This document shows, piece by piece, positions 28,305 through 48,836 of a stretch of DNA of 48,836 nt. The DNA is taken from the NCBI GenBank assembly GCA_003164895.1, contig PLUL01000019.1, positions 1 to 48,836 on the forward strand. The letters run 5' to 3'. Position 1 is the first letter of the stretch. Each line of letters opens with the position of its first letter. The position numbers and the translations under genes were made by a program. This DNA comes from Bacteroidota bacterium. Lineage in GTDB: Bacteria; Bacteroidota; Bacteroidia; Palsa-948. The notes beneath the pieces were generated by a model. The model was given only the letters and a program-made list of their open reading frames with translations, ran no database searches and had not been told where the DNA came from.

Positions 28305-29576
28305 ATGAGCAACGCAATTATTACAGTTGAAAATGTTAGTAAAAGCTATATTCTGAAACATCAGAATGCCGAGCGTTATACTGCATTGCGTGATGTTATT
28401 GCCAGTAAAACAAAAAATATTTTTAATCCGAAATCTGAAATCCGAAATCCGAAATCTGAACAGTTCTGGGCATTGAAAGATGTTTCATTTGAAGTAAAGC
28501 AAGGTGAACGTGTTGGTATTATTGGTAGAAATGGCGCAGGCAAATCAACTTTATTAAAAATATTAAGCAGAATAGTTACGCCTACAAAAGGTAGAATTAC
28601 TATCGAAGGTCGAGTGGCAAGTTTACTGGAAGTTGGTACTGGTTTTCATCCTGAATTAACAGGTCGTGAAAATATTTTTTTGAATGGCTCAATACTTGGA
28701 ATGAATAAAGCTGAAATCAAAAAAAAGTTTGATGAAATAGTTGCCTTTTCGGAAGTAGAAAAATTTCTTGACACTCCGGTTAAACGTTATTCATCCGGAA
28801 TGTATGTCCGCCTGGCATTTGCAGTTGCCGCTCATTTAGAACCGGAAATTCTTATTGTGGATGAAGTGCTTGCCGTTGGGGACGCTCAATTTCAGAAAAA
28901 ATGTTTGGGAAAAATGCAGGATGTTTCCGAAAATGGTAAAACCATTTTGTTTGTCAGTCATAATATGGATGCAATAACGAGATTGTGCGATAAAACTATT
29001 CTCCTGAAAGACGGCACTATTGCATTTGAGGGAGAAACAGAAAAAGCAATTACTTCCTATTTGAGCGGGCAATTCGGAGTTTCTTCTAAGAAAACATGGA
29101 ACAACCTGAATCTCGCGCCAGGAAATGATAAAGTTCGTTTGCTTGAAGTAACTGCTCATGATGAAAATTTTAATGTCAATAATAAATTCAATATTACCGG
29201 TAAAATTGGTATCACAATGAAGTATCAAGTTTTACAAGATCAGGAAATCATTACAGAAAGTTTTAATGTATTCAACGAGAACGGCGTGCATTTATTCAGT
29301 TCGCACGATCTTTCTGAGATAAAAAATAAAGTTCGTCAAAAAGGTATTTATACCTCCACCATGTGGATTCCCGGAAACACTTTAGCGGAAGGCACACATA
29401 GTGTTTCTGCTGCCGTAATGAAACTTTATCCATTTGATATTTATTTTCATGAGATGGATGCTGTTGGTTTCACAATTTACGATTCAATAAATGGCGATTC
29501 AGCTAGAGGGGATTATATGCAGCATTTTCCCGGTGTTATGCGACCATTACTTCAATGGGAAACAAAAATTTATTGA
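28305..29576 (+). CDS. Polysaccharide ABC transporter ATP-binding protein (Wzt-like)
   Basis: The 423-residue protein carries Walker A GRNGAGKST (74-82), the signature YSSGMYVRLAFA, Walker B ILIVDEVLAVGD and the H-loop SHN. A C-terminal extension of about 160 residues is beta-rich like the Wzt carbohydrate-binding domain, which reads the end cap of the exported chain. Residues about 42-52 (PKSEIRNPKSE) are encoded by a heptanucleotide tandem repeat lying just before the ABC core, so repeat slippage would truncate the protein. It pairs with the permease upstream. Confidence 0.93.
   Translation: MSNAIITVENVSKSYILKHQNAERYTALRDVIASKTKNIFNPKSEIRNPKSEQFWALKDVSFEVKQGERVGIIGRNGAGKSTLLKILSRIVTPTKGRITIEGRVASLLEVGTGFHPELTGRENIFLNGSILGMNKAEIKKKFDEIVAFSEVEKFLDTPVKRYSSGMYVRLAFAVAAHLEPEILIVDEVLAVGDAQFQKKCLGKMQDVSENGKTILFVSHNMDAITRLCDKTILLKDGTIAFEGETEKAITSYLSGQFGVSSKKTWNNLNLAPGNDKVRLLEVTAHDENFNVNNKFNITGKIGITMKYQVLQDQEIITESFNVFNENGVHLFSSHDLSEIKNKVRQKGIYTSTMWIPGNTLAEGTHSVSAAVMKLYPFDIYFHEMDAVGFTIYDSINGDSARGDYMQHFPGVMRPLLQWETKIY
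28428..28462 (+). repeat. Heptanucleotide tandem repeat in wzt, 5 units
   Basis: The units are CCGAAAT, CTGAAAT, CCGAAAT, CCGAAAT and CTGAACA, contiguous and in the coding frame. The last unit is degenerate. Confidence 0.85.
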
Positions 29577-29612
29577 ACAGTTTGAAGGCAATTTTAAGTC
29601 AAGTAATTCTCA

Positions 29613-30530
29613 ATGAAATCAATTTGTTTTTTCAGCAGTTATTTTCAGCAAAATCAAATTCCGCTTTATGTTAAAGTTTATTTGGAAGAATTAAGCAGGC
29701 ATTTTAGTGAAGTTGTTTTAATCACTAATGAAAAAAAAATGCTTAATACAGAAATTCAATATCTTGATAAAAAAAATATTAAATATTTACAAGTAGTTAA
29801 TGAAGGATTTGATTTTGGAATGTGGTACAAAGCCATGAAAGTATATGATGTTTTACAATATGATAGGATAGGACTGATTAACGATTCTTGCATATTATTT
29901 AAAAAATTAGATGAAACTTTCAAATGGATAAATTCAGGAGATTGGGATTATTGTGGCATGGTTGATTCTATCGAATATTCCTATCACATACAATCCTATT
30001 TTATTGTCATTAATAAAAACGCTATACTGCCTGTTTATAATTATTTTATGCAAAACGGAAAAAGAAAGGATATTCTTGATGTGGTAAAACTTTATGAAAT
30101 TGGGTTATCAACTTACTTAATAGAAAAAGGACTAAGCCTTGGCTCATGTTTTAGCATAACATCGTCTCTCAATCCATCACTTTTTTGTGTTACGCAATTG
30201 ATTGAACAAGGAATTCCTTTAATTAAAAAGAAAATTATTTTTAAATCTTTCAGAGAAGAATACCGTGATTTATTAGGTAAAAATTTCATTATTGACCCGA
30301 GGTATTATATAAAATTAATAAAACAAAAAAATACAAGTGCAATTATTCTTAATCTTGATTTACTTATAAAAGATATTGTAAATCCAACTTTTATCTGGGG
30401 AATTTACTGGTTTAAAATTCTTGACTTTTGCACTTCATGCGTAAAGCATGGGTATTCGCTTCTTTTCACCCCATTGAAATTATTCGTTAAACAATTAATA
30501 TTAATCCATAAAAGACCGCCCATTGAATGA
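29613..30530 (+). CDS. RgpF-type glycosyltransferase (rhamnan synthesis F family), copy 1
   Basis: The 305-residue protein resembles the RgpF family (rhamnan synthesis F), glycosyltransferases of polysaccharide assembly. Characteristic blocks are ICFFSSYFQQNQIPLYVKVYLEEL, NEGFDFGMWYKAM, YDRIGLINDSCILF and YHIQSYFIVINK. A second copy lies at 31571. Sugar specificity is not readable. It is part of the plus-strand glycan locus and ends in an 8-base overlap with the next gene. Confidence 0.85.
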   Translation: MKSICFFSSYFQQNQIPLYVKVYLEELSRHFSEVVLITNEKKMLNTEIQYLDKKNIKYLQVVNEGFDFGMWYKAMKVYDVLQYDRIGLINDSCILFKKLDETFKWINSGDWDYCGMVDSIEYSYHIQSYFIVINKNAILPVYNYFMQNGKRKDILDVVKLYEIGLSTYLIEKGLSLGSCFSITSSLNPSLFCVTQLIEQGIPLIKKKIIFKSFREEYRDLLGKNFIIDPRYYIKLIKQKNTSAIILNLDLLIKDIVNPTFIWGIYWFKILDFCTSCVKHGYSLLFTPLKLFVKQLILIHKRPPIE

Positions 30531-31554
30531 ACCATTGATTAGTATTTGCATACCTACTTATAATGGGAGTAAATATTTGGAAGAATGTTTGTTATCCGTT
30601 TTTGAACAAACTTATAATGACTTTGAAATAATTATTTGCGATGATTGTTCCACAGACAACACCCTTGAAATCGTAAAAATATTTCAACAAAAAGATACTC
30701 GAATAAAATTATTTGTCAACGAAAGTAATTTAGGATTAGTTGGCAACTGGAATCGTTGCATAGAATTAGCAAAAGGTGAGTGGATAAAATTTCTTTTTCA
30801 AGATGATTCAATGTCGGCAACCTGTTTACAGGAAATGCTGCAAGTAACAAATAGCAATACTCAAATGGTAGTTTGCGAAAGAGAATATATTTTTGAAGAT
30901 GGCATAACGACTGGCATTAAAAAAAAATATAGTCGTACACCAAGAATGTATCAACTTGTTGGAGATAAAGGGGTGCAACATATTTCAGCAAAATACTTGT
31001 GTTCATTGATAGGAAAATGCTTTCCTTCAAATTTTATTGGCGAACCGACTTCCATTATGTTTAGAAAATCGGTTACAAAAAAAATTGGATTTTTCAATTC
31101 TAAAGTAACTCAACTATGTGATTTAGAATATTGTTTAAGAATAGGAGTTCGCGATGGTTTTGTATACATACCGGATAAATTAGTAAACTTTAGAGTACAT
31201 GGTTTGTCAGCCACTCAAAAAAATAATTCGGAAAAATATTTCAAGTCTTCCTATAGTGACAGAATAATTACATTGTGCTTATTATTTTTTGATTTGGATT
31301 ATAAAAATTTTAGAAAAAATTGTACTAAGACGAACCTATATAAACTTAAATACAACTTACTATACAGCTTATATCACGCAGATTTATACATAAAAACCAA
31401 CTATAAAGATCAACTGCTTTTAAAAGAAATGCAGGATATAATGAACCTTTACCCGAAAATAAATAAATACAAAAAATATTATCCTTTATATGCTACTTTA
31501 AAATCATGGATTCTCCTTATTAGGCAAAAAAATAATTCTCTTATAAAAGGATAA
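30523..31554 (+). CDS. Glycosyltransferase family 2
   Basis: The 343-residue GT-A fold enzyme has the nucleotide-sugar motif ISICIPTYNGSKYLEECLLSVFEQ at its N-terminus, a DDCSTDNT turn and a DxD-like FQDDS. No membrane helix was seen. The best start is TTG at 30523, overlapping the upstream stop by eight bases and giving the usual MNEPLIS N-terminus; no ATG fits. It lies between the two RgpF-type genes. Confidence 0.88.
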   Translation: MNEPLISICIPTYNGSKYLEECLLSVFEQTYNDFEIIICDDCSTDNTLEIVKIFQQKDTRIKLFVNESNLGLVGNWNRCIELAKGEWIKFLFQDDSMSATCLQEMLQVTNSNTQMVVCEREYIFEDGITTGIKKKYSRTPRMYQLVGDKGVQHISAKYLCSLIGKCFPSNFIGEPTSIMFRKSVTKKIGFFNSKVTQLCDLEYCLRIGVRDGFVYIPDKLVNFRVHGLSATQKNNSEKYFKSSYSDRIITLCLLFFDLDYKNFRKNCTKTNLYKLKYNLLYSLYHADLYIKTNYKDQLLLKEMQDIMNLYPKINKYKKYYPLYATLKSWILLIRQKNNSLIKG

Positions 31555-31570
31555 AAAAGAAAGATCAAAC

Positions 31571-32518
31571 ATGAAATCAATTTGTTTTTTCAGCAGTTAT
31601 TTTAGAGATGAAAAAATTCCTTATTATATAAAATTCTATTTAGAAGAGTTAACAAAACATTTTTCCGAAGTTATTTTGCTGACTAATGAAAAAAAAATAC
31701 TTGAGCGTGATATTCATTATCTCCAGAAAACAAATATTAAACTCAAATTCGTCGCAAACGAAGGATACGATTTTGGCATGTGGTACAAAGCAATGAAGCA
31801 GTTTGATATTTTAGCATACGACCGAGTGGGACTTATTAATGACTCGTGCGTATTGTTTAAAAAACTTGATGAACCATTTGACTGGATTAATAAATCTAAT
31901 CTTGATTATTGTGGACTTATTCATTCTCATTCGATTTCATATCATATCCAATCGTATTTTGTAATTGTGAATAAGAATGCGATAAAACCCGTTCATGATT
32001 ATTTTATGACACACGGTATTATAAGTGACTACCACCAAGTAATTTCAACATACGAAATTGGACTGAGCAAATATTTACGAGCGCAGGAATTAAAGTTAGG
32101 CACATTATATTATAGTAAGAAAAATATAAAACAGTTTAATCCTTCTTTCTTGGTAATTGACGAATTAATTAAGGATGGAATACCACTTATTAAAAAGAAA
32201 ATTATTTTCAGATCATACAGAAGGGGAGAATACATCAGTTTGCTGCGAATGGGATTTAATATTGATTACCGTTATTATATAAATCTTATTAAAATGTCTA
32301 ACAAAAATCAAGAGCTAATTGATTTTGATCTTGTATTGAAGCACTCCACAAATAAAAACTTAATCGATGTTTACCTATATAAAATGGTACTTTTTATTTA
32401 TAATATTGCTCGCAGAAGCAATACACTTACGTTTCTTTTCCATAAACTAATCCTATTTAGAAGATACTTAAGAGGCAACACGAATAAAAACATATTAGCA
32501 ACTTATGAAGAGGAATAA
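31571..32518 (+). CDS. RgpF-type glycosyltransferase, copy 2
   Basis: This 315-residue paralogue of the protein at 29613 keeps all the blocks: ICFFSSYFRDEKIPYYIKFYLEEL, NEGYDFGMWYKAM, YDRVGLINDSCVLF and YHIQSYFVIVNK. The first 33 coding bases are identical in the two genes although the proteins overall are clearly diverged. The copies probably add different or successive sugars of the same repeat unit. Confidence 0.85.
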   Translation: MKSICFFSSYFRDEKIPYYIKFYLEELTKHFSEVILLTNEKKILERDIHYLQKTNIKLKFVANEGYDFGMWYKAMKQFDILAYDRVGLINDSCVLFKKLDEPFDWINKSNLDYCGLIHSHSISYHIQSYFVIVNKNAIKPVHDYFMTHGIISDYHQVISTYEIGLSKYLRAQELKLGTLYYSKKNIKQFNPSFLVIDELIKDGIPLIKKKIIFRSYRRGEYISLLRMGFNIDYRYYINLIKMSNKNQELIDFDLVLKHSTNKNLIDVYLYKMVLFIYNIARRSNTLTFLFHKLILFRRYLRGNTNKNILATYEEE

Positions 32519-32536
32519 ATTAAAGATTTGTATTTA

Positions 32537-33364
32537 ATGGCTGATAAAAAAAAATTATTTCTACTAGTTAGCTACTTCAATGAAAAAGAAGTAGCTGAAT
32601 TCGTTACTTCGCAATTAAACAATTTGTTAAATGATACTATTCATGCTGTCATCATTGATAATGGCAGCTTTGAACCTGAGATTTTAGAAAAACTTTGCAA
32701 CTCAAACCTTTCATTAACACTTTGTAAACCAGAAAATAATATCGGATATTTTGGCGCTGCCCACTACGGACTAAACCATTATCTAAAAATTAATAATCTT
32801 CCTGATTTAATTATTATTTGCAATACAGATATTTCTTTTGAAGGGATTTCTTTTATCAAGCAACTCGATAAAATATATGATGAAAAAAAATTTGATGTTT
32901 TAGGTCCGGATATTTATTCTACATTTTTAAAGTATCATCAAAATCCTTATATAGCAAAAAGAATTAGCCGACAAAAAATGCAGATATACAAATGGGTTAC
33001 ATCAAGCCAATATTTATATACTATATTCACATTATTGCATTTGATTAAAACTACAGTTGTAAAATCAAATCAAAATAAAATTACCAACGAAATTGATACA
33101 TATGCTATTCACGGTTCTTTTATGATTTTTAACAAAACTTATTTTACAAAAGGAGGCAGTATCAATTATCCTTCACTGTTATTTGGCGAAGAAATATTTG
33201 TAGCTGAAACTGCTTTGCAAAGAGGATTAAAAGTGATCTATGAACCATCACTCCATATTGAACATCGTCAAAATGCAACCACTAATTCGTTTAAATCAAA
33301 AAAATTAGTTCAATTGATGAACCAATCGTATAGATATTTATTGAAAACATTTTTTATAAAATAA
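32537..33364 (+). CDS. Glycosyltransferase family 2 (rhamnosyltransferase-like)
   Basis: From ATG 32537 the protein has 275 residues. LVSYFNEKEVAEFVTSQLNNL, HAVIIDNGS, NNIGYFGAAHYGL and IICNTDISF form a GT2 fold of the WbbL/rhamnosyltransferase kind, with the NTD triad in place of DxD. EHRQNATT near the end may be the catalytic-loop region. A TTG three codons upstream is possible but less likely. Its stop overlaps the next start (TAATG). Confidence 0.82.
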   Translation: MADKKKLFLLVSYFNEKEVAEFVTSQLNNLLNDTIHAVIIDNGSFEPEILEKLCNSNLSLTLCKPENNIGYFGAAHYGLNHYLKINNLPDLIIICNTDISFEGISFIKQLDKIYDEKKFDVLGPDIYSTFLKYHQNPYIAKRISRQKMQIYKWVTSSQYLYTIFTLLHLIKTTVVKSNQNKITNEIDTYAIHGSFMIFNKTYFTKGGSINYPSLLFGEEIFVAETALQRGLKVIYEPSLHIEHRQNATTNSFKSKKLVQLMNQSYRYLLKTFFIK

Positions 33365-34338
33365 TGCTGCCTGAACCAATAATAACAGTGCTATGTCCAA
33401 CTTACAATGAAGTTGATTCAATAGAAACGGTGCTACGCTTTTTTACTGAATCCCAACCAAAAGAAAAAGAATTATATGTTATTGATGGCGGTTCAACAGA
33501 TGGAACAATTAACATTGTGGAAAGATGGTCACAACAATATGAGTCAATACATTTGCTTTTTAACAAGCATAAATATGTTCCTCAAGCTTTAAACTTAGGA
33601 TTGAGTGTTTCTAAAGGCAAAATCATTATTCGCCTTGATGCACATACTATATATGAAAATAATTATTTTGAAAAAATAATTGAAACATTTGAAAACACTC
33701 AAGCGGATATTGTTGGCGGTCCGATGAGAGCGGCTGGGATAACCGATATACAAAAAGCTATTGCATACGCAACTTCGGGATGGTTTGGGATTGGTGACAG
33801 CAAGTTTCACGATCCAAATTTCAAAGGTTATGTTGACAGTGTTTATCTGGGAGCATGGAAAATAAATATTTTTAATGACGTAGGTTTTTTTGATGAACGG
33901 ATGGTGCGTAATCAGGATGATGAGTTCCATTACAGGGCAAAAAGTAAGGGTAAAAAAATTTATCTTAATCCAGAAATAAAATCAACCTATTTTCCCCGAT
34001 CTACTTATTCTGCCTTATTCAAACAATATTTTCAATATGGGTTTTACAAACCGTATGTGATAAAAAAAATAAAAACAGAAATTAAATTAAGGCATCTTAT
34101 TCCACTGTTTTTCATAATTTATTTATTCTGCTTACCATTTGCAGTGCAATATCCTATAATTTTTTTACCGTTGCTTATATATTCTCTTGCTGATATATTC
34201 TGCTCCTTTTTCAATAGTCAAACTTTTAAAGTTAAGCTATCATTACTTTTTGTCTATCCGACAATTCATATTTCTTACGGCATAGGGTTCCTATTAGGAT
34301 TAGGCAAAATATTATTCATTGGAGATAATACAAAGTGA
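33364..34338 (+). CDS. Membrane-associated glycosyltransferase family 2
   Basis: The 324-residue protein starts with a GT2 domain (ITVLCPTYNEVDSIETVLRFF, VIDGGSTDGT, IIRLDAHTIY) and has an acidic VRNQDDEFHYRAKSKG motif matching the QDDE acceptor region of ExoA-like succinoglycan glycosyltransferases. Two or three hydrophobic helices close the C-terminus (about 240-320). It probably works at the inner membrane on a lipid-linked glycan. Confidence 0.88.
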   Translation: MLPEPIITVLCPTYNEVDSIETVLRFFTESQPKEKELYVIDGGSTDGTINIVERWSQQYESIHLLFNKHKYVPQALNLGLSVSKGKIIIRLDAHTIYENNYFEKIIETFENTQADIVGGPMRAAGITDIQKAIAYATSGWFGIGDSKFHDPNFKGYVDSVYLGAWKINIFNDVGFFDERMVRNQDDEFHYRAKSKGKKIYLNPEIKSTYFPRSTYSALFKQYFQYGFYKPYVIKKIKTEIKLRHLIPLFFIIYLFCLPFAVQYPIIFLPLLIYSLADIFCSFFNSQTFKVKLSLLFVYPTIHISYGIGFLLGLGKILFIGDNTK

Positions 34339-34406
34339 TTTTTCTATAAAACAAGAAACACATTTTCAAAATAAAATTATTTTATCTCATTGCCAGTCAA
34401 ATTACA

Positions 34407-35894
34407 ATGCACGATTATTATCACCATCAATACAATAAAAAAATACACCAGGCAACTATTGCAGTCATGCTGCTTGGAATTATTTTGTCCTTTATTCAAT
34501 TTATATGCAATCGAAGCTTGTGGTTTGACGAATCTCTATTGTCTCTAAATATTATCACAAAAAATTATAGCGAACTTATAAATCCATTAGAATATAACCA
34601 GGTAGCTCCTATTGGTTTTCTGGAAATTGAAAAATTATTCTCTACACTTTTACCAAACTCCGAATTCGGATTGAGAATTTTTCCTCTGCTTTGCTACTGG
34701 GTTTCTATATATTTATTTTATCGCGTGATTGGTTATATATCAAAAGATGGGAAAACAATATTGTTAGCGGTATCCTTGTTCTGCCTAAATTCTTCATTAT
34801 TATATTACTCGTCAGAAGTAAAACAATATATGTGTGATGTGTTTGTTTGTTTGTTGCTATATTACTTGTTTCTAAAAAAATATCAAAATAAAAAAATGCT
34901 ACTCTTATCAATAGTTGGTTCACTATGTATCTTTTTATCAAACATTTCAATAATTATTTTATTTACAATTGCCATAGTTATAATTAGAGACGGCATAACA
35001 CAAAATAAAACAAACCTCAAAAGGTTAGTTTTACCCTTGACAACATGGGCTTTATCTTTTGGTTATTATTATTATAGGTTCATCAATAATCACCCTAATA
35101 AAAAATCCATGCTAAACTATTGGGGCGAGAGTTTTATGCCTATCAATGTATTTAAAATTAGTTTCTGGGATTTTTGTTTCTACAAAACAAAAATGATTTT
35201 TTTTTCCTTATTATCATTTGACTCGGCAGGAATTATAGCTTTAGTCTTTTTCACAATAGGACTTTATAATTTAATTAAAGCGAAAAATAAAAATATTTTA
35301 TTTTTATTTTTATTGCCAATATTATTGCAGTTAATCTTATCCATTTTCAAACTTTATCCTTTTGACTTAAGATTAATATTATACCAAACAGGTTTTTATA
35401 TTTTAATATTATCTGTAGGTATTATAGACATTACCACATGGGGTTTTCAAAAAATCAAGAAAGGGTGGATTGCATGGATTCCAATAATTTTTCCATTAAT
35501 GGTATGTATAAACCTTTTTAAAAACTATCCAATAAAAGTAGAAGAGTTAAAAAATAGTGTTGAATTTATTTCAAATCATATACAGCCAAATGAAACAATC
35601 TACATTTATTATGGAGCTATTCCTGCATACAAATATTACACCGAAACAAAAATAATATCTTTGAAAAATCCAATACTATTTGGCAAAGTATCCAGAGAAG
35701 ATGAAAATAAATATATTAAGGAAATTGAAAACAATAAAAATAAATGCTGGATTATCTTCTCTCATATTTATGATACTGAAAATAAGTATATCACTAATTA
35801 TTTTGACTTGACTTATAAAAAAATATTCAGCTATACTACTATTGGTTCGGAGGTTTATCTCTACGATATGACCGAAATTAAAAAAAATTACTGA
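34407..35894 (+). CDS. GT-C-like polytopic membrane glycosyltransferase
   Basis: The 495-residue protein has about ten to eleven membrane helices. The first extracytoplasmic loop carries WFDESLLSLNI, resembling the acidic catalytic motif of PMT/ArnT/RgtA-type GT-C enzymes that use polyprenyl-phosphate sugars. The C-terminal 100 residues are soluble. The role would be to add a side sugar on the periplasmic face. It is very AT-rich, like its neighbours, and its stop overlaps the next start. Confidence 0.72.
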   Translation: MHDYYHHQYNKKIHQATIAVMLLGIILSFIQFICNRSLWFDESLLSLNIITKNYSELINPLEYNQVAPIGFLEIEKLFSTLLPNSEFGLRIFPLLCYWVSIYLFYRVIGYISKDGKTILLAVSLFCLNSSLLYYSSEVKQYMCDVFVCLLLYYLFLKKYQNKKMLLLSIVGSLCIFLSNISIIILFTIAIVIIRDGITQNKTNLKRLVLPLTTWALSFGYYYYRFINNHPNKKSMLNYWGESFMPINVFKISFWDFCFYKTKMIFFSLLSFDSAGIIALVFFTIGLYNLIKAKNKNILFLFLLPILLQLILSIFKLYPFDLRLILYQTGFYILILSVGIIDITTWGFQKIKKGWIAWIPIIFPLMVCINLFKNYPIKVEELKNSVEFISNHIQPNETIYIYYGAIPAYKYYTETKIISLKNPILFGKVSREDENKYIKEIENNKNKCWIIFSHIYDTENKYITNYFDLTYKKIFSYTTIGSEVYLYDMTEIKKNY

Positions 35895-37135
35895 TGAAAA
35901 ATATTTTCTCCATTCAAAAGATTCACCTTTACTTATGCGTGCTTATTGCTTTTTTTCTTCCTTTTCAATCTCATGATATTCAATTATTATTTCAAACAGT
36001 TCCGATATTAACATGCCTCCTAATAATCAACTGGATTGCAGAAGGAGATTTTAACGCAAAGATTTCAAATCTCAAATCAAATAAATCGGCATTATTATTT
36101 ATTTTATTTTACTTACTTTATGTTATTGGAATGTTATGGTCAAAGAATATGAATTATGGTGGAATTGACCTGCAAATAAAACTTTCACTTTTGATATTCC
36201 CAATAATATTCGGGTCTTCAAAATACTTTATCAAAATCAAATCACTAAAAATAATTTTTATTGCTTTTATAACAGGATGCTTGATAGCAACTATAATCTG
36301 TTTTTCAAATGCAATGTATATTTGGATTACTCAAAATGAAAACGATTTCACATACACTAAACTTTCCGTCTTTTTACATCCAAGTTATTTCGCGATGTAT
36401 CTTTCTTTTGCTATTGCAATTATATACTCGGCACTTATTTCCGAGAAAACAATAACTGGAAAATCAGTTACAGATATTTTTTTAATAATTTGGTTTTGGT
36501 TTTCCATCATCATGCTGCAATCCAAAGCTGGAATTTTGATTACAGGAATTTTATTTATTGTATTCTTTTTTAGAATGGTGTCTGTAAAAAAGAAAATAAT
36601 AACCGCCTTAGTTGCATTCATAGTTTTAGGTTGTATATATTTTGCAGTTACCAAATATATTATCACAGCCAATCATTCAAGAATTTTAAATGCCGAACAT
36701 CAGCTTATAGAAACAAAATTAAACACTACAACAAAAGAAAGTAACCAGGTAAGAATATTAATCTGGAAAGCATCTGCAGATATTATAAAAAATAACTTTC
36801 TCATTGGAACCGGAACAGGCGATGTAAAAGATGAACTGATGAGAACTTATAAAGAAAAAGGTATGACGGGAGCATTCGAACACAATTTAAACGCACATAA
36901 TCAATTTATTCAAACATTTATTGCGTTGGGAGTTCCGGGCATTGTCGGTTTATTATCTTTATTTATCTCCGGAATATGGAGTGGTATTAAAAAAAGAAAA
37001 TGGGTATTTATTTTTTTTATGATTATTACATTTTTAAATTTCATTCCCGAATCCATGCTCGAAGTTCAAACAGGTGTAATATTTTTTGCTTTCTTTAATT
37101 CCTTACTTTTATTTTCTGAAGCAGAACCAATATGA
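35894..37135 (+). CDS. O-antigen ligase/polymerase family membrane protein (WaaL/Wzy-like)
   Basis: The 413-residue polytopic protein has about eleven helices. A large periplasmic loop (about 255-335) contains GTGTGDVKDEL and HNLNAHNQFIQTFIALGVPGIVG, the PF04932-type signature. It could ligate the glycan to lipid A or polymerise repeat units; the two functions cannot be told apart by sequence. A short run TCAAATC TCAAATC (36065-36078) is another small heptamer repeat. It overlaps the aminotransferase gene by four bases. Confidence 0.85.
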   Translation: MKNIFSIQKIHLYLCVLIAFFLPFQSHDIQLLFQTVPILTCLLIINWIAEGDFNAKISNLKSNKSALLFILFYLLYVIGMLWSKNMNYGGIDLQIKLSLLIFPIIFGSSKYFIKIKSLKIIFIAFITGCLIATIICFSNAMYIWITQNENDFTYTKLSVFLHPSYFAMYLSFAIAIIYSALISEKTITGKSVTDIFLIIWFWFSIIMLQSKAGILITGILFIVFFFRMVSVKKKIITALVAFIVLGCIYFAVTKYIITANHSRILNAEHQLIETKLNTTTKESNQVRILIWKASADIIKNNFLIGTGTGDVKDELMRTYKEKGMTGAFEHNLNAHNQFIQTFIALGVPGIVGLLSLFISGIWSGIKKRKWVFIFFMIITFLNFIPESMLEVQTGVIFFAFFNSLLLFSEAEPI

Positions 37136-38349
37136 TTCCATTTTCACCGCCAAAAATTACCGATGAACTGGTTAAAGCCGTTACAGAAGTGCTTCGTTCA
37201 GGTTGGATTACGACTGGACCAAAAACCAAAGAATTTGAAAAACGAATTACTGAATATTGCGGATGCAAATCTACTTTATGTCTTAACTCTGCTACTGCCG
37301 GGCTGGAAATTATGCTGAGATGGTTCGGTGTAACAAAAGGAGATGAAGTAATTGTTCCAGTTTACACTTATTCCGCAACGGCAAATGTGGTTGTCCATTG
37401 TGGAGCAAAAGTTATTTTTGTGGATGTAAACAAAGATGATTTTAATATTTCTATTGAGAAAATTGAAAAAGCAATTACTTCCAAAACAAAAGTGATTATG
37501 CCTGTAGATTTTGGAGGATTTCCCTGCGATTATGATGCGATAAATGAATTAGTAAAACAAAAGAACATTAGAAAAAAGTTCAAAGCAAATTCTCCAGAAC
37601 AGAAAAAATTAAAAAGAATTCTTGTGTTGAGCGATGCCGCACATTCCATCGGTGCAACTTACAAAGGAAAAAAAACCGGTTCGCTTACCGATGTTTCTGT
37701 TTTTTCTTTCCATGCCGTAAAAAATTTAACTACAGCTGAAGGCGGAGCAGTCTGCCTGAATCTTCCAAAACCGCTTGACAATGAAAAGATTTATTCCGAA
37801 CTGAATATCAAATCGCTTCACGGGCAAAACAAAGATGCACTTGCAAAAACAAAAATTGGACAATGGAGATATGACATTGTTGAAGCCGGTTATAAATGCA
37901 ACATGACTGATATTTCAGCAGTGATGGGAATTTGCGAATTGAAAGATTATGACAATGATACGCTTGTGAAAAGAAAAAAAATATGCAACTTATATTCTTC
38001 AGCATTTTCAAAATATGATTGGGCGGAAGTTCCGACACTTCATACTTCAGAAAGAGAATCTTCCTATCATTTATTTCCGCTTCGCATCAAAGGAATAAAA
38101 GAAAAACAGCGTGATGAAATTATAAAAGAAATATTTGCAAAAGAAGTTGCGGTGAATGTTCATTTCATCCTTGTTCCGATGATGAGTTTCTACAAAAAAC
38201 ATGGATATAAGATTAAAAATTATCCAGTAGCTTTTAATAATTACTCGAGGGAAATTTCGCTTCCTGTTTACTATGATTTAACCAATGAGCAAATAAAAAT
38301 TGTGATTGACGCAGTAGTTTCGTCTGTTCAAAAAATTCTTGGATGCTGA
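37132..38349 (+). CDS. DegT/DnrJ/EryC1 family sugar aminotransferase
   Basis: This 405-residue PLP enzyme makes an amino sugar from a keto-sugar nucleotide. It shows SGWITTGPKTKEFE, DEVIVPVYTYSATANVV, LSDAAHSIGA and the PLP-lysine motif SFHAVKNLTTAEGG with Lys197. A lysine-rich insertion (about 143-162) precedes the DAAH block. A 4-keto-6-deoxy hexose is the usual substrate type, giving a bacillosamine- or perosamine-like sugar. The next gene, a phosphoglycosyltransferase, would attach such a sugar to the lipid carrier; the pair overlaps by seven bases. Confidence 0.93.
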   Translation: MIPFSPPKITDELVKAVTEVLRSGWITTGPKTKEFEKRITEYCGCKSTLCLNSATAGLEIMLRWFGVTKGDEVIVPVYTYSATANVVVHCGAKVIFVDVNKDDFNISIEKIEKAITSKTKVIMPVDFGGFPCDYDAINELVKQKNIRKKFKANSPEQKKLKRILVLSDAAHSIGATYKGKKTGSLTDVSVFSFHAVKNLTTAEGGAVCLNLPKPLDNEKIYSELNIKSLHGQNKDALAKTKIGQWRYDIVEAGYKCNMTDISAVMGICELKDYDNDTLVKRKKICNLYSSAFSKYDWAEVPTLHTSERESSYHLFPLRIKGIKEKQRDEIIKEIFAKEVAVNVHFILVPMMSFYKKHGYKIKNYPVAFNNYSREISLPVYYDLTNEQIKIVIDAVVSSVQKILGC

Positions 38350-38933
38350 AAAGAATTTTCGATATTATTTTTTCCCTCCTCGGCATTATCATTCTACTTC
38401 CTTTCTTTTTGTTATTTGCAATTCTAATTGTTTTTGATTCAGGATTTCCCGTTTTCTACTCACAAAAACGAGTTGGAAAAAACGGAATTAATTTCTCGCT
38501 TATCAAATTTCGCACGATGAAAAAAAATTCCGACAAAAAAAGTTTGCTTACTGTTGGCGAAAAAGATTCCCGAATAACAAACATCGGATATTTTCTTCGC
38601 AAATATAAAATTGACGAACTCCCTCAACTATTCAATGTTTTGATTGGCGACATGAGTTTGGTTGGTCCAAGACCTGAAGTGAGAAAATATGTGGAGATGT
38701 ACAATCCAGAACAGAAAAAAATCCTCTCGGTAAAACCAGGTATTACCGATTACGCTTCTATTGCATACGCAAATGAAAATGAAATTCTCTCAAAGTCAGA
38801 AAATCCTGAACAGCTTTACATTACCGAAGTGATGCCTGCCAAACTAAAATTGAATTTAAAATATATCGTAGAGAAAAGTTTTTTTACCGACTTGAAAATT
38901 ATTTTTATGACAATCGGAAAAATTGTAAGTTAA
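38343..38933 (+). CDS. PglC-type monotopic phosphoglycosyltransferase
   Basis: The 196-residue protein starts with one reentrant hydrophobic helix (about 5-30). The bacterial sugar transferase domain follows, with FYSQKRVGKNGINFSLIKFRTM, RKYKIDELPQLFNVLIGDMSLVGPRPE and VKPGITDYASI. The size matches the minimal PglC/WcaJ-core class, which transfers a sugar phosphate to undecaprenyl phosphate and starts glycan synthesis. It closes the plus-strand glycan locus. Its stop overlaps that of the convergent gene in the bases TTAA. Confidence 0.93.
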   Translation: MLKRIFDIIFSLLGIIILLPFFLLFAILIVFDSGFPVFYSQKRVGKNGINFSLIKFRTMKKNSDKKSLLTVGEKDSRITNIGYFLRKYKIDELPQLFNVLIGDMSLVGPRPEVRKYVEMYNPEQKKILSVKPGITDYASIAYANENEILSKSENPEQLYITEVMPAKLKLNLKYIVEKSFFTDLKIIFMTIGKIVS

Positions 38934-41711: not shown

Positions 41712-41869
41712 GTTGAAAGATTTTGATTTGGTGGTCAAACTTACAAATACTTTGCCAAACCTGTTAACACTTGTTAAGAAACTTCTAAAATAGAGGTTTA
41801 AAACTATTTGTACTTTAGTCCGCTAAAAGACGAACTCCGTATTACATCGGAGCAAAATAAAATTTGAAT

Positions 41870-43300
41870 ATGGATAAAATTAAATTTGGAACCGATGGCT
41901 GGCGTGCCATCATTGCAAAAGAATTCACCACCGAAAACGTAGCCCGCGTTGCAGAAGGCACTGCTCTTTGGCTTCTCAACTCGAAATTCCAAACTTCAAA
42001 CTCCAAACTCTCTATCGTTGTCGGTCACGACTGCCGTTTTGGAGGTGAATTATTTGCCGAAACAGTTTCAAAAGTGTTGGCACATCATGGCATAAAAGTT
42101 TTTCTTGCAAAAGGATTTGTTTCCACACCGATGATTTCTCTCGGAACTGTAAAATACAAAGCCAATCTCGGCATCATCATTACTGCAAGCCACAATCCTC
42201 CGTCATACAACGGTTTTAAATTGAAAGGTTATTACGGCGGACCGCTTCTTCCTGAACAAGTTTCAGAAATTGAAAATCTGATTCCTGATCATGCAGAATC
42301 AAGCACTGCGCATCAAGTAGCAAGTATCGAGAAGATGATTCAGCATGTTGACTTGGAAACTTTATATTGCAAACACATTGAAAAGAATTTTGATTTAAAG
42401 GCGATACAAAAATCAAAAATGACACTTGCTTACGATGCCATGTTTGGTGCCGGACAGAATGTTATTAAGCGATTACTCCCTGAAACAATCATGCTTCATT
42501 GCGAAAACAATCCTTCATTCAACGGAACTTCACCGGAACCGATTGCAAAAAATCTTCAAGAAATTTCTACACTTATTAAAAACTCTCAAAAGAAAAAAGG
42601 AAAAAATAAAATCGAATGTGCTTTAGCAACCGATGGTGATGCTGACAGATTAGGATTATTTGACGGTAAAGGAAATTTTGTTGATTCGCATCACATCATT
42701 CTTCTTTTAATTCATTACTTGTGCAAGTATAAAAAGATGAAAGGAAAAATATGCACTGCTTTTTCCACTACTGAAAAAATTAAAAAGATGTGCAAGCATT
42801 ATGGATTGGAACTTGAGGTTGTGAAAATTGGTTTCAAATATATTTGCGGAATAATGATTAAAGAAGATGTTTTGCTTGGCGGAGAAGAATCGGGAGGCAT
42901 TGCAATCAAAGGACATATTCCTGAACGTGATGGAATTTGGATCGGACTTACAATTTGGGAATTCATGGCAAAATCAGGAAAATCGCTTGACGAATTAATC
43001 AAAGAAGTGTATGCGATTACCGGAAGTTTTGCGTTTGAGAGAAATGATTTACATATTTCCGAAGAACTTAAAAACAAGATTGTAGAAAATTGCAAGCAAG
43101 GAAAATATAAGTCGTTCGGAAAATATAAAGTTCAACGCGTGGATGACATGGATGGATGGAAATACTTTTTCAATGAAGAAGAATGGCTGATGATCCGCGC
43201 TTCAGGCACCGAACCTGTTTTAAGAACCTATGCTGAATCCTCAACCCAGAAAAAAGCATTTGACATTTTAAATTCAGCTAAGAAAATTTTTCTTCAATAA
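41870..43300 (+). CDS. Phosphoglucomutase/phosphomannomutase family protein
   Basis: The enzyme (476 residues from ATG 41870) interconverts hexose 1- and 6-phosphates. It has FGTDGWRAI, the phosphoserine loop TASHNPPSYNGF (Ser107), the metal loop DGDADRLGLFD, the sugar loop GGEESGGIAIKGHIPERDG and the phosphate-binding RASGTEPVLR. Four heptamers encode residues about 37-46 (NSKFQTSNSK), an apparent in-frame insertion between two conserved elements. It could supply sugar nucleotides for the glycan locus. The next gene starts right after its stop. Confidence 0.93.
   Translation: MDKIKFGTDGWRAIIAKEFTTENVARVAEGTALWLLNSKFQTSNSKLSIVVGHDCRFGGELFAETVSKVLAHHGIKVFLAKGFVSTPMISLGTVKYKANLGIIITASHNPPSYNGFKLKGYYGGPLLPEQVSEIENLIPDHAESSTAHQVASIEKMIQHVDLETLYCKHIEKNFDLKAIQKSKMTLAYDAMFGAGQNVIKRLLPETIMLHCENNPSFNGTSPEPIAKNLQEISTLIKNSQKKKGKNKIECALATDGDADRLGLFDGKGNFVDSHHIILLLIHYLCKYKKMKGKICTAFSTTEKIKKMCKHYGLELEVVKIGFKYICGIMIKEDVLLGGEESGGIAIKGHIPERDGIWIGLTIWEFMAKSGKSLDELIKEVYAITGSFAFERNDLHISEELKNKIVENCKQGKYKSFGKYKVQRVDDMDGWKYFFNEEEWLMIRASGTEPVLRTYAESSTQKKAFDILNSAKKIFLQ
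41981..42008 (+). repeat. Heptanucleotide tandem repeat in the phosphohexomutase gene, 4 units
   Basis: The units are TCGAAAT, TCCAAAC, TTCAAAC and TCCAAAC, contiguous and translated. They are similar in style to the wzt array. Confidence 0.8.
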
Positions 43301-43306
43301 GTGCAG

Positions 43307-46300
43307 ATGAAAAAAATTATAAAAACATTTTTAGTTTTTAGTTTTTCATTTTTAACTTTTCATTCTGTATTTGCGCAAGCGCCAAAAACTTTTTCTGCCG
43401 ACTCAGTGAAATTCCTGAATGAAATGGATGATTATTTCAGCTCAGTGCAGGGAAAAGAAAAAGAAGGCCATACTTTTATCAAAGAACAATTCAAGCCGTT
43501 TTGGTTTGGCGGATATATGTCGGATGATAAAAGGCAATTTGTCTACATCACCAGCATTGCTATGCTTCAAAAAAAACTTCGCCCATTTCCTGATTACTAC
43601 AATTTCTTCATGGCAATGATAAATTTTTACAACACGACAAAACTGGAAGAAAAAAGTTTTCAATCATGGAAAACAAGTATTGAAAAACTCATAGGAAAAG
43701 GAAGTTCGAAAAAACTTTCTGATTTTTTGGAAGCATCCAACAATTTATTCAGCACAAATAAACTTTTCAAATCTCCTGCAGAAGAATGGTTTGCTGACAA
43801 CAACAATTACTCATTCGAATTTGATTCATTACCAAAAATCATTTTTTCAAAAACAAATTTATCTTGCGCTGTTAAAGCTGATACTGCAACTATTTTCGAA
43901 ACATCAGGAATCTATTATCCTACAGAAAAAAAATGGGTTGGTAAAGGAGGTAAAGTTACTTGGGCACGCGATGGGATTGACGACAAACAGGTTCATGCAG
44001 AACTCAACAAATACAAAATCAATCTCACCAAACAAAGCTATACAGCCGACTCTGTAAAATTCACCAACGAAATTTATTTTAAAACTCCCATACTTGGAAC
44101 GATAGAAGAAAAAGCAGTTCCAGATGCAACTCCCGAGAATTCAACTTATCCGCGATTTGAATCTTACAGCAGTCGGTTTGAAATAAAAAATATTGCTCAG
44201 GGAAAAGTAGATTTCTCAGGCGGATTTTCTCTGCGCGGCAGTAAGTTCATCGGTTCAGGAAGCAAAACTGCGGATGCATATCTTATTTTCAAGCGCAACA
44301 ACAAACCGCTTGTGAAAGCTTCGGGAAAAACTTTTATTTTCAAAAAAGACAGAATTACTTCGGATGACGCGGCAATAACAATGTATCTTGACAAGGATTC
44401 TATTTATCACCCTTCCATCAATGTGAAATTTGACATTGACAATAAGGAACTTATCCTTATCCGGCTTCTTGAAGGTATTTCAAAAACTCCATACTTCAAC
44501 ACATTTCACAAAGTGGATATGTACATTGAAGAAATTGACTGGAAACTTGACTCAGCCAATATGTATTTCAAAACGCTCATCGGAAGTTCGCAGGGAGTTG
44601 CTGAATTTCCCTCAGCAAATTATTTTCGTGCCGATGTTTTTTACCAGCTTCAGGGAATTGACGATATTAATCCGCTCAGCGCGTTAAAAAATTGCGGTGA
44701 CCAGTTAAAGAAAAAAGAATTTACTGTAGTTGAATTTTCCAAATGCAGACGGCTTGACCCGAACGATATTCGCCCGTCTCTGATTGCCATCGCAAGTCTG
44801 GGATTTATTATTTACAAACCAGATGAAGATAAAATAATTTTAAAAGACAGGTTGGAACAGTTTCTCAAAGCGAAAGCAGGCGCTGTGGATTACGATGTAA
44901 TTGGAATTAAATCCAACGTTCATGGCGGATCAAACAATGCCGTTCTTAATCTTTTGAATTATGATTTGAAAATTTATGGAGTTTCGCAAATTCTCCTAAG
45001 CGATTCCGAAAACGTAACTATTTATCCTGCAAAAAACCAAGTTGTGCTAAAGAAAAATCGCGACTTTACTTTTGGCGGAGTGGTTCAAGCTGGAAAATTT
45101 TCCATCTTCGGAAAAGATTTTTCTTTCAATTACGACCAGTTCAAGATCAACATTAATAATGGCGACTCCATTCGTTTTTCCGTTCGCAGATTAACGCCCG
45201 ATGCGTTTGGAAGTTTTCCTGATGTGCCCGTAAAATCCGTTATCGAACAAGTGCAGGGAGAATTGATTATTGACAAAACAAATAATAAGTCTGGCAGAAC
45301 ATCTTATCCTCAATATCCTATTTTCAATTCATCCAAAGAATCTTTTGTTTATTACAGCAAGCATTCCATACAAAAAGGTGTTTACAAGCGCGATAAATTT
45401 TATTTCAAGATCGATCCTTATACACTCAGCAGTTTGGATAATTTCAAAACGGAAGCGCTGAAACTAAAAGGAATTTTTTCTTCCGCAGGAATTTTTCCTG
45501 ACTTTGTTGACACGCTTTCCATTCAGCCGGATTACTCGCTGGGTTTTGTTCGACCAGCTCCGGGTGGAGGATTTGCTTCGTATGGCGACAAAGGAAAATT
45601 CACGAACAAAATCAAACTCAGCAACGAAGGTTTGCACGGCGACGGTACGATTGATTATCTCACTTCTACTTTAAGTTCAAGCAATATGGTTTTCTATCCT
45701 GATTCGGTGAATGGCATGGCGGAAAAATTTGCAGTGCGCGAACAGAAAGGCGAGAAGGTGGAATATCCTCCGGTGAAAGGAGACAGTGTTTATGTTCATT
45801 GGACTCCCAAAAAAGATGTGATGCAGATATTCTCGCAAGTGAAACCGTTGGATATGTATAAGGGGCAAGCGCAGATGAAGGGAAGAGTGGATTACTCGCC
45901 AAAAGAAATGAATGGAAACGGCAAACTGGATTTCTCCGGCGCAACCATGTCTGCCAACCTGATGAAATTTAAAAATAAAAAAGTATTGTCCGACACCGCA
46001 TCGTTTAGCTTGAAAGCATTGGAAAGTTCGCAATTTGCCTTCTCCACAAAAAACGTCAATGCCATTGTTGATTTTGAGAAACGCACGGGTGATTTTGCAT
46101 CGAACGGAAAAGGTTCCATTGTTGAATTTCCTGTCAACCTGTATATCTGCTACATGGATAACTTTAAATGGAACATGGATGCAGGCGAAATTGAACTTGC
46201 TTCGCGCGACGCGAACAAACCAAAAGATGCACGTATGCTCGAACTTTCAGGACCTGAATTTATTTCTACGAATCCCAAACAGGACTCCTTGCGGTTCAAT

Positions 46301-47788
46301 GCACCAAAAGCTAAATTCGATTTCAAAAATTACATCATCTCCGCGATGGATGTGGCTTGGATAAATGTTGCCGATGCAAAAGTGTATCCCGACAGCGGAA
46401 AAGTTACCATTCTGAAAGCTGCCGAGATGAAAACTTTCTCCAACGCAAAAATTGTTGCCAACAGCATAACTGCGTATCACACCGTTTACAAAGCCAATGC
46501 TAATTTGTTCGGCAGAAAGAGTTATGCCGCATCGGGATATTATGATTACGTGGATGAGATGAAAAACAAACAACCCATTTATCTGGCAAACATCCGCGTG
46601 GATACCACTTATCAAACCATTGCCGAAGCAACCATTCTGGATTCTGCGCATTTTATGCTGAGTCCGAATTACGAATTCAAGGGGAAAGTAAATCTTGCTT
46701 CCAATAATCAGTTCATGGTGTTTACGGGTTCAACCAAGGTTACTCAAACCTGCCCTGCGCTTGGCAACGGAAAAACATGGTTTAATTTCTCCGCACAAAT
46801 TAACCCTGAAAAGATTCTCATTCCGGTTACCGACAAACTGGTGGATGACAGAGACAAAGACATCAGCGCGGCAATTATGGTGGCTGCCGATACATCAGGA
46901 ATTTATACTTCGTTCTTCACCAAAAAAATTCACAAGAACGATCAGGAAGTTATCTCGGCAACAGGATTTTTATTCTATGACAAACCAACGAAAGAATATC
47001 GCATCACTTCGAAAGAGAAACTCAACGAGCCAACACTTACCGGAAATTACCTGAGCTTGAAATCGGATGCCTGCACAGTTTACGGAGAAGGAAAGATGGG
47101 CGGGTTGGGTCTCGACCTTGGACAAGTGAAGATAGACGCGGTGGGAAATGCCTCGCACGATCTGAAAACCGATTCCGCGTCGTTCAATATGATGATGGCG
47201 CTCGATTTCTTCTTCGACAATTCTGCGCTTGATAAAATGTCGGAACTGATTTCAAACACAACATCGCTCACAGGAGTTACCGTGGGCGCCACGTTTGAAA
47301 AAGGTTTGCACGAACTTTTGGACAAAGAAAAAGCCGACAAACTTATTGCCGATGTAAGTCTGTACGGCAAGTTTAAAAAGTTTCCTGACGAACTGGATCA
47401 CACCATTTTCTTAACTGATGTTCATGCGCAATGGGATAAAAAGAATAACGCCTACGTTTCAACCGGAGCCATTGGCATTGGTTTCATTCACAAGAACCAG
47501 GTGAACAAATATGTATCGGGCAAAATTGCGCTGTCGAAGAAAAGAACGGGCGACATCCTAGATATTTATTTAGAAGTGGATAAGAACAACTGGTATTATT
47601 TCCGCTACACAAAAGGATTGCTCACAGCCGTTTCGGGCGACCCTGCCTTTAATAAGATTGTTCAGGAATTGAAAGCCGATAAGCGCACGCAAAAAGGCGA
47701 ACGCGGACAAACTCCTTATGAGTTTTCGATTGGCAGCGAGCAGCAGAAAAATCTTTTCCAGCGCAAGTTTAAGAATACGGAGGAGTAA
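43307..47788 (+). CDS. Very large exported beta-rich protein of unknown function
   Basis: From ATG 43307 the protein has 1,493 residues; a GTG two codons earlier is possible. A signal peptide (about 1-24) leads into a helical region (about 30-160). Well over 1,100 residues follow with alternating short strands and repeated themes such as GKVDFSGGFSLRGSKF, LSNEGLHGDGTIDYL, MKGRVDYSPKEMNGNGKLDFSGA and YEFKGKVNLASNNQFMVF. The rhythm recalls the open beta-groove proteins of lipid transport (LptA/OstA, AsmA/TamB), but no diagnostic motif was seen. There is no T9SS domain, so a periplasmic or outer-membrane-inner-face place is likely. I recall homologues in Bacteroidota annotated only as hypothetical. 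Confidence 0.8.
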   Translation: MKKIIKTFLVFSFSFLTFHSVFAQAPKTFSADSVKFLNEMDDYFSSVQGKEKEGHTFIKEQFKPFWFGGYMSDDKRQFVYITSIAMLQKKLRPFPDYYNFFMAMINFYNTTKLEEKSFQSWKTSIEKLIGKGSSKKLSDFLEASNNLFSTNKLFKSPAEEWFADNNNYSFEFDSLPKIIFSKTNLSCAVKADTATIFETSGIYYPTEKKWVGKGGKVTWARDGIDDKQVHAELNKYKINLTKQSYTADSVKFTNEIYFKTPILGTIEEKAVPDATPENSTYPRFESYSSRFEIKNIAQGKVDFSGGFSLRGSKFIGSGSKTADAYLIFKRNNKPLVKASGKTFIFKKDRITSDDAAITMYLDKDSIYHPSINVKFDIDNKELILIRLLEGISKTPYFNTFHKVDMYIEEIDWKLDSANMYFKTLIGSSQGVAEFPSANYFRADVFYQLQGIDDINPLSALKNCGDQLKKKEFTVVEFSKCRRLDPNDIRPSLIAIASLGFIIYKPDEDKIILKDRLEQFLKAKAGAVDYDVIGIKSNVHGGSNNAVLNLLNYDLKIYGVSQILLSDSENVTIYPAKNQVVLKKNRDFTFGGVVQAGKFSIFGKDFSFNYDQFKININNGDSIRFSVRRLTPDAFGSFPDVPVKSVIEQVQGELIIDKTNNKSGRTSYPQYPIFNSSKESFVYYSKHSIQKGVYKRDKFYFKIDPYTLSSLDNFKTEALKLKGIFSSAGIFPDFVDTLSIQPDYSLGFVRPAPGGGFASYGDKGKFTNKIKLSNEGLHGDGTIDYLTSTLSSSNMVFYPDSVNGMAEKFAVREQKGEKVEYPPVKGDSVYVHWTPKKDVMQIFSQVKPLDMYKGQAQMKGRVDYSPKEMNGNGKLDFSGATMSANLMKFKNKKVLSDTASFSLKALESSQFAFSTKNVNAIVDFEKRTGDFASNGKGSIVEFPVNLYICYMDNFKWNMDAGEIELASRDANKPKDARMLELSGPEFISTNPKQDSLRFNAPKAKFDFKNYIISAMDVAWINVADAKVYPDSGKVTILKAAEMKTFSNAKIVANSITAYHTVYKANANLFGRKSYAASGYYDYVDEMKNKQPIYLANIRVDTTYQTIAEATILDSAHFMLSPNYEFKGKVNLASNNQFMVFTGSTKVTQTCPALGNGKTWFNFSAQINPEKILIPVTDKLVDDRDKDISAAIMVAADTSGIYTSFFTKKIHKNDQEVISATGFLFYDKPTKEYRITSKEKLNEPTLTGNYLSLKSDACTVYGEGKMGGLGLDLGQVKIDAVGNASHDLKTDSASFNMMMALDFFFDNSALDKMSELISNTTSLTGVTVGATFEKGLHELLDKEKADKLIADVSLYGKFKKFPDELDHTIFLTDVHAQWDKKNNAYVSTGAIGIGFIHKNQVNKYVSGKIALSKKRTGDILDIYLEVDKNNWYYFRYTKGLLTAVSGDPAFNKIVQELKADKRTQKGERGQTPYEFSIGSEQQKNLFQRKFKNTEE

Positions 47789-48691
47789 TCACTTCACCAC
47801 CACCAGCTTCTTGCTCAACACACCTTCGTCGGTTTTGAGTTGCAGAAAATAAATTCCGGTTGCTTGCGCAGAAAGGTTAATGGTTAATTGTGTTGATTGC
47901 GGTAATTGGGTGTTACTGTAAACCTTTTCTCCAAGCACATTGTAAATCACTACACTGTTCATTTGCAAATTGGATAATTGATTTATTTGCATATTAAACT
48001 GCCCGTTCGTAGGATTGGGAAATATTTTTATTAAACGAGATTCATCATCTTCTTTCATTCCTGTGAGTAAACCTAAGCAAGTGTCCACCGTATTATATGG
48101 TGTTACAGTAGTATGATGATATAACTGTATTCCGTTTTCAGTATAACAAACTAACGTCCATGCCCATTCAAATTAATAATCAAAAGGCATAAATAAAAAA
48201 TGTGTACTGCCAACACCTTCAATCCATGCATTGTTATTGATTGAACCATTTGTATTAAATCTTTTTCTGTAATTACCATTAATTAATATTGAATCAATTG
48301 AAATTATTTTTTCTGGATAAACTGCGCTAGCAAATTTAATCGGAACAGTATCTCCAACATGAAGACCAAATGTGTACAGCAAAGTATCATTGGCAAAAGA
48401 GCTTTGATAATAACCATGGAAATAGACCGATTTTGTTGTTATATCTTGTCGAATTGCACCGCTATAACCATTGCCATTATAAATTTTATGATATAATTTA
48501 TTATTAATTGTGGTGTCACCTTTCATAAAATAGTTTTGAAGTTGTTGAGAGTAATTAGAAGGACTACTTTGATATTCAAACAAAACTGTCCACACCGCAT
48601 TTGAATCAGGAAACGGATGATAAACATTCGTCTGCGCATCGGCAGAAAAGAAAACAATTGCAAATAATATAAAAGCGTAATGTTTCTTCAT
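47789..48691 (-). pseudogene. T9SS cargo protein gene interrupted by one in-frame stop
   Basis: ATG 48691 opens a signal peptide (KKHYAFILFAIVFFSADAQ) and about 170 residues of a secreted beta-rich protein, ending at TAA 48175-48173. The same frame continues without shift: FEWAWTLVCYTENGIQLYHH, then a T9SS type A sorting domain (IKIFPNPTNGQFNMQ ... GIYFLQLKTDEGVLSKKLVVVK) and the true stop at 47789. Without the stop the gene would encode 300 residues. A tyrosine codon changed to TAA (giving FDYYFEW) is the simplest explanation; a sequencing error is possible. The truncated product would lack the sorting signal. Confidence 0.88.
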
Positions 48692-48695
48692 TGAG

Positions 48696-48703
48696 TAAAG
48701 ATA
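48696..48703 (-). promoter_or_regulatory. -7 promoter box (TATCTTTA) of the interrupted T9SS gene
   Basis: One mismatch from TAnnTTTG on the minus strand, four bases before ATG 48691, with a TTG 17 bases further upstream. It would again give an almost leaderless transcript. Confidence 0.35.
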
Positions 48704-48724
48704 CACATTTTGTAGAAAAACAAA

Positions 48725-48757
48725 AAAGCCCACTCCGCCAAACTCGAAATGGGCTTT
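48725..48757 (-). terminator. Intrinsic terminator of the gene entering at the window end
   Basis: Read on the minus strand, AAAGCCCA and TGGGCTTT form an 8-bp stem followed by a T-run, 11 bases after the stop at 48768. Confidence 0.75.
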
Positions 48758-48767
48758 ATTTATTTCA

Positions 48768-48836
48768 CTACGCTTTTGGCGCAGCGGGTTTTGGCTTTGC
48801 CTTGGGCTTTTTATATTCCGATTTCTTTTTAATGCC
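48768..48836 (-). CDS. C-terminal tail of an unidentified protein (partial)
   Basis: The minus-strand frame is open from the window edge to TAG at 48768-48770 and encodes 22 residues, GIKKKSEY followed by a Lys/Pro/Ala-rich tail ending AAPKA. The tail is basic and low-complexity, as found at the ends of some nucleic-acid-binding proteins. A terminator follows directly, which supports a real gene end. The family cannot be named from this piece. Confidence 0.55.
   Translation of the reverse strand, partial: GIKKKSEYKKPKAKPKPAAPKA

Follow-up and report, generated by a model that had tools for sequence, protein, structure and literature searches.

The 48,836-nucleotide window that we analysed (contig PLUL01000019.1 of assembly GCA_003164895.1, from a member of the Bacteroidota) encodes on its forward strand, at 43307–47788 including the stop codon, an exported protein of 1,493 amino acids. 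We read this protein as a soluble single chain that bridges the periplasm in the manner of Lpt and carries envelope lipids, perhaps phospholipids, and give this reading a probability of roughly one half. It is carried by a first beta domain that is predicted to fold like the Lpt/OstA jellyroll, by regular antiparallel ladders in a coevolution analysis, and by the recurrent neighbour PlsY, an acyltransferase of phospholipid synthesis. The reading frame begins at ATG 43307, stays open for 1,493 codons and ends with the stop at 47786–47788; the mechanically called open reading frame (ORF) starts at GTG 43301, two codons upstream. Judged by eye, the N-terminus (MKKIIKTFLVFSFSFLTFHSVFA, ending in VFA and followed by QAPK) resembles a signal peptide (residues 1–23, 43307–43375) that is probably cleaved between A and Q and has no lipobox cysteine. 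An alignment of N-termini, also judged by eye, shows the same kind of start with an A/Q-type cleavage site in most relatives. The initial annotation, which had described a large exported protein of 4.5 kb with a signal peptide, is borne out on this point.

The domain order was predicted with an AlphaFold2 (AF2) model of residues 24–860, for which the alignments held only eight sequences. This model has a mean predicted local distance difference test score (pLDDT) of 59 and runs from a helical N-terminal domain through beta strands to a small helical patch, with a pLDDT of 76–93 at residues 24–150 and mostly 60–90 at residues 150–253. The helical domain (residues ~24–150, 43376–43756) also shows alpha periodicity and no antiparallel ladders. 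The first beta domain (residues ~150–273, 43754–44125) is predicted to fold like the Lpt/OstA-type jellyroll. In VIA-align, its model matched LptC (6mjp_C) at Z 11.8, with a root-mean-square deviation of 2.8 Å over 117 amino acids, as well as the LptD N-domain (Z 10.6), LptH (8.6) and LptA (8.0). These Lpt matches head the list, and unrelated folds score Z 4.7 or lower. Foldseek gave weaker support than VIA-align, its best matches being LptD at E 0.002 and LptC at probability 0.91. That the folds nearest to the first domain are those of LptC, LptD and LptA would also be expected of a second Lpt-type system, which would carry lipopolysaccharide or unusual Bacteroidota lipids (sulfonolipids, ornithine lipids) and complement the LptA-like protein OstA_2. 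We consider such a system quite unlikely, as OstA_2 is already encoded by a separate gene in 57 of 60 sampled genomes, with or without the studied family (in the window's own genome, on contig C26), and as the usual neighbour of the studied gene is PlsY.

Mean-field coupling analysis was performed on 162 relatives (effective number ~101). Ladders, meaning nested antiparallel couplings with one common centre, which are the mark of hairpin strands, were scored against a shift null. Residues 150–445, which include the Lpt-like domain and a further beta region with strands in the model (residues ~274–445, 44126–44641), contained 24 ladders against 5.9 expected at the 1% level. In the long beta region at residues ~530–1300 (44894–47206), ladders were found at 80 positions against 15.6 expected at the 1% level, and at 28 against 1.6 at the 0.1% level; the helical N-domain contained none, against 2.4 expected. 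The ladder centres recur with a period of 16.5 residues at 150–445 and 17 residues at 530–1300 (0 of 300 nulls), and the helical domain shows no period. AF2 hairpin centres fall on the ladder peaks (fraction of random shifts 0.0064). Because the same spacing recurs through residues 530–1300, the Lpt-like domain can serve as an internal reference for this region, in which a profile self-comparison with hhalign also revealed an internal repeat (752–899 against 843–1002, E 1.4e-5). The positive controls TamB and OstA_2 were enriched in ladders as well (40 against 18.7 and 50 against 9.9), at 30 sequences, which are too few for a period estimate. The ladders and the self-repeat support a single extended antiparallel stack, as a long groove would give. 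At ~16.5 residues per rung, the protein would hold ~64 rungs, which at 4.8 Å each would reach ~30 nm, enough to cross the periplasm.

A long run of antiparallel strands could also belong to an outer-membrane beta-barrel or surface protein, and porins are among the weak fold matches of a second AF2 model, which covers residues 762–1493 and again had only eight sequences in its alignment. Little trust can be placed in this model (pLDDT 41), the folds matched by the first domain are those of periplasmic Lpt domains, and rungs spaced evenly at 16.5 residues would hardly allow long outer loops to alternate. In addition, ~60 strands are far above the number in any barrel known to us, and we hold this explanation to be highly improbable. 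We treated the model of residues 762–1493 as uninformative, and its top folds (porins and LptC, Z at most 5.2) were not used for our main claim. Structure prediction, by which the initial annotation had meant to look for a groove, gave an Lpt-like fold for the first domain and no reliable model for the C-terminal half, so that a continuous groove in the proposed lipid bridge is putative.

The genomic setting of the gene in its relatives provides the link to lipids. The usual gene order is TpiA, PrmA, the studied gene and PlsY, all on the same strand. Among 45 wide loci, PrmA is found at position −1 in 32, PlsY at +1 in 26 and TpiA at −2 in 23, with median gaps of 3 bp between PrmA and the gene and ~30 bp between the gene and PlsY. 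The gene adjoins PlsY in eight further divergent members, which add little because the presence of PlsY was the ground for their choice. Four genomes without the family (L124, L125, L129 and L131) have PrmA directly followed by PlsY, which suggests a clean in-place loss, or a gain elsewhere. Since PlsY attaches the first acyl chain to glycerol-3-phosphate, its place next to the gene hints at phospholipids, although the order of the genes could be an inherited one, and its recurrence points to envelope lipids in general. PlsY is present in 43 of 53 genomes with the family and in 16 of 47 without it (shared ancestry uncorrected). These counts, together with one family that has the gene without PlsY (f15), led us to reject a strict dependence on PlsY. 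The conserved order also includes the unrelated TpiA and PrmA, and the C-terminal half has no reliable model, both of which would fit a protein with a structural or wall-associated rather than a transport role, made up of separate globular beta domains and with neighbours that reflect inherited order only. The rung spacing shared by both beta regions, and the Lpt-like domain, whose known relatives fold into a groove, make such a protein very unlikely.

In the window's genus, a phosphohexomutase gene (41864–43300, forward strand, PGM_PMM domains I–IV) stands in the place of PrmA at −1, outside the conserved setting. Three sister loci of this genus (L002, L003 and L006) retain PlsY at +1, and in the window's own species PlsY is located on another contig. 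The initial annotation was right that the gene follows a phosphohexomutase, and had suggested a bridge that carries lipids or glycans. As the phosphohexomutase is a genus-specific neighbour, it is no evidence for a glycan role and this link was dropped; the lipid half of the suggestion is retained on the strength of the Lpt-like domain, the ladders and the PlsY link.

Two further parts of the lipid-bridge candidate are not beta-rich throughout. Residues ~446–530 (44642–44896) form a winged-helix-like insert that matched OhrR/MarR winged helices in Foldseek (probability 1.00) and VIA-align (Z 9.1), and the family members gave weak Pfam matches to many different winged-helix families, all at this position. 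Winged-helix folds are mostly DNA-binding and cytoplasmic, and the occurrence of a MarR/IclR-type fold (as in OhrR) within an exported protein is unusual. Embedded as it is in an exported protein, the insert is unlikely to bind DNA, and probably serves docking. The C-terminal domain (residues ~1301–1493, 47207–47785) is of mixed helix and strand, with alpha periodicity at residues 1301–1350 and an AF2 pLDDT of ~50–70. The earlier picture of a strand-rich protein with glycine turns therefore holds beyond the N-domain, where the strands are accompanied by conserved glycines, but overlooked that the first 130 residues are helical and that a winged helix interrupts the strands.

Searches with the protein gave no match in Pfam and NCBIfam at E ≤ 10. 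When 32 relatives were scanned singly, no NCBIfam family was found and Pfam models appeared only scattered and at chance level, with no match to the Lpt families at E ≤ 1. The PDB yielded no match by sequence (phmmer); by profile it yielded two chance-level matches, to an antibody chain and an ancestral elongation factor, which were discarded. No match to the protein was found in the phage and plasmid collections, and 22 pattern matches in viral contigs included no true relatives. The gene region contains no tandem DNA repeats, and the open-access literature that we searched held no paper on the family. In the sources searched, the protein is undescribed, as initially stated, and it belongs to a widespread family that is unnamed in Pfam and NCBIfam. 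The absence of a type IX secretion system (T9SS) tail was likewise confirmed, as the C-terminal sorting domain was found neither in the protein (NCBIfam, E ≤ 10) nor in the 32 members (E ≤ 0.01). A gene for a T9SS-tailed exported protein lies at 47789–48835 on the reverse strand and runs towards the studied gene, right up to the stop codon of the latter. It contains one in-frame stop (between FMPFDY and FEWAWTL) and also runs past the contig end; either the cargo gene is broken or the sequence is in error. Further upstream in the window, ~28305–38933 on the forward strand is occupied by a polysaccharide/O-antigen-type cluster with genes for a Wzt-like ABC ATPase and an RgpF-like protein as well as aminotransferase-like and sugar-transferase-like genes.

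Among known systems, the Lpt bridge proteins LptC, LptA/LptH and the LptD N-domain (OstA superfamily) resemble the studied protein in being exported and in having consecutive antiparallel rungs, with the jellyroll likeness limited to residues ~150–273. Unlike these proteins, it has a helical N-domain and a winged-helix insert and is not encoded beside lpt genes, and it is about ten times longer than LptA. The Bacteroidota LptA-like OstA_2 (PF13100, ~500–590 amino acids) is exported too, and the same fold class is expected for both. The AsmA-like proteins (TamB, YhdP and YdbH) and the eukaryotic bridge-like lipid transfer proteins are alike in size (TamB here has ~1,500 amino acids), in their long beta-rich body and in being proposed lipid conduits, whereas the studied protein lacks the TamB C-terminal domain (PF04357) and a match to AsmA (PF05170). 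TamB is encoded by a separate gene in 80 of 80 Bacteroidia genomes (in the window's own genome, on contig C64). As both OstA_2 and TamB occur irrespective of the family, the studied protein is neither. Profile comparison with hhalign, which had been proposed as a check, also gave no match to OstA_2 (probability 0.3%) or TamB (0.7%). An inner-membrane anchor like that of AsmA/TamB was not seen by eye, and the start, where LptC has its transmembrane anchor, resembles a cleavable signal peptide; at the other end, where LptD has its barrel, the fold matches of the C-terminal model reach Z 5.2 at most. Of the likeness to LptA/OstA or AsmA/TamB that was first noted, the Lpt fold at residues ~150–273 and the regular ladders remain, and a profile relationship does not. 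If our reading holds, the bridge would work like the Lpt or AsmA type, yet its sequence places it in neither.

The family is found throughout much of the class. The window's own genome has one copy, and all seven sampled species of its genus have the gene. The initial annotation had proposed to follow the phylogenetic spread, and in a class-level draw the family was present in 240 of 296 sampled Bacteroidia genomes and in 136 of 166 genera. Several Bacteroidia families are entirely without the gene, where a check with a 32-row profile gave one marginal match (E 0.004). A phylum-wide draw was positive in only 10 of 247 genomes; as the most complete genomes, many of them from families without the gene, appear to be over-represented in this draw, the class-level 81% should not be read as the share of cultured Bacteroidota. 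Members are nearly always single-copy, with one open frame of ~1,480–1,600 amino acids, and full-length relatives at 32–80% identity occur across well over a hundred genera. An alignment of 57 sequences has 43 invariant columns. The conservation of the ORF is far from chance, and the gene is no orphan.

The presence of the family is also related to the copy number of TamB. At least two TamB genes were found in 28 of 40 genomes without the family against 6 of 40 with it (Fisher p 1e-6), and at the family level in 9 of 12 against 6 of 39 (p 2e-4); the copies are distinct frames tallied by hand, with no correction for shared ancestry. AsmA copy number showed no clear contrast between the two groups of genomes. 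The second TamB in genomes without the family fits a possible functional replacement of one envelope bridge by another. It would also fit a periplasmic scaffold or chaperone that works like TamB with TamL, in which a beta-rich rod guides the strands of client outer-membrane proteins or lipoproteins rather than lipids. TamL and TamB are essential in Flavobacterium johnsoniae, which has seven AsmA-like proteins, and depletion of TamL raised outer-membrane lipoproteins and left lipids without substantial change, from which the authors concluded that TamL is most likely not an outer-membrane lipid transporter (PMC12045153). However, the neighbour of the studied gene belongs to phospholipid synthesis and not to protein assembly, no TamB profile match was obtained, and no TamA/TamL-type gene was seen beside the gene. 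We therefore regard a scaffold or chaperone as unlikely.

Several observations weigh against the lipid bridge. Both AF2 models are of low overall confidence (pLDDT 59 for residues 24–860 and 41 for 762–1493), and the Foldseek E-values to LptD are only 0.002–0.2. Neither the protein (E ≤ 10) nor the 32 members showed sequence homology to OstA, LptC, TamB or AsmA profiles. The antiparallel ladders also fit beta-barrels and stacked sandwiches. PlsY may adjoin the gene only because the order was inherited together with TpiA and PrmA. Co-occurrence, another of the checks first proposed, did yield contrasts for PlsY and for TamB, but both correlations are confounded by phylogeny. Finally, no membrane anchor is known, which leaves the mode of docking without explanation.

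In the mechanism that we propose for the bridge, antiparallel beta rungs of the Lpt type would be piled into one long stack, with the helical N-domain as its entrance and the winged helix as its single interruption. The stack would form a hydrophobic groove spanning most of the periplasm, along which envelope lipids, most likely glycerophospholipids, could slide between the inner and outer membrane, and partner proteins may provide docking at both membranes. We infer from the combined evidence the one continuous open groove, the binding of lipids, the phospholipid cargo and the docking at two membranes. More tentatively, the family may stand apart from Lpt, AsmA/TamB and MCE as a so far unnamed class of lipid bridges that span the envelope and are widespread in Bacteroidia. 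One soluble chain would combine an Lpt-like start with ~60 rungs and a docking module of the winged-helix type, would be tied to phospholipid synthesis through PlsY and could be replaced by a second TamB; we consider this possible, though doubtful. For the transport of phospholipids to the outer membrane of Bacteroidota, a family with an Lpt-like domain and PlsY as its neighbour is a concrete candidate. If the proposal is true, an unnamed class would join the known periplasmic lipid bridges, and the copy number of TamB would indicate that such bridges may replace each other.

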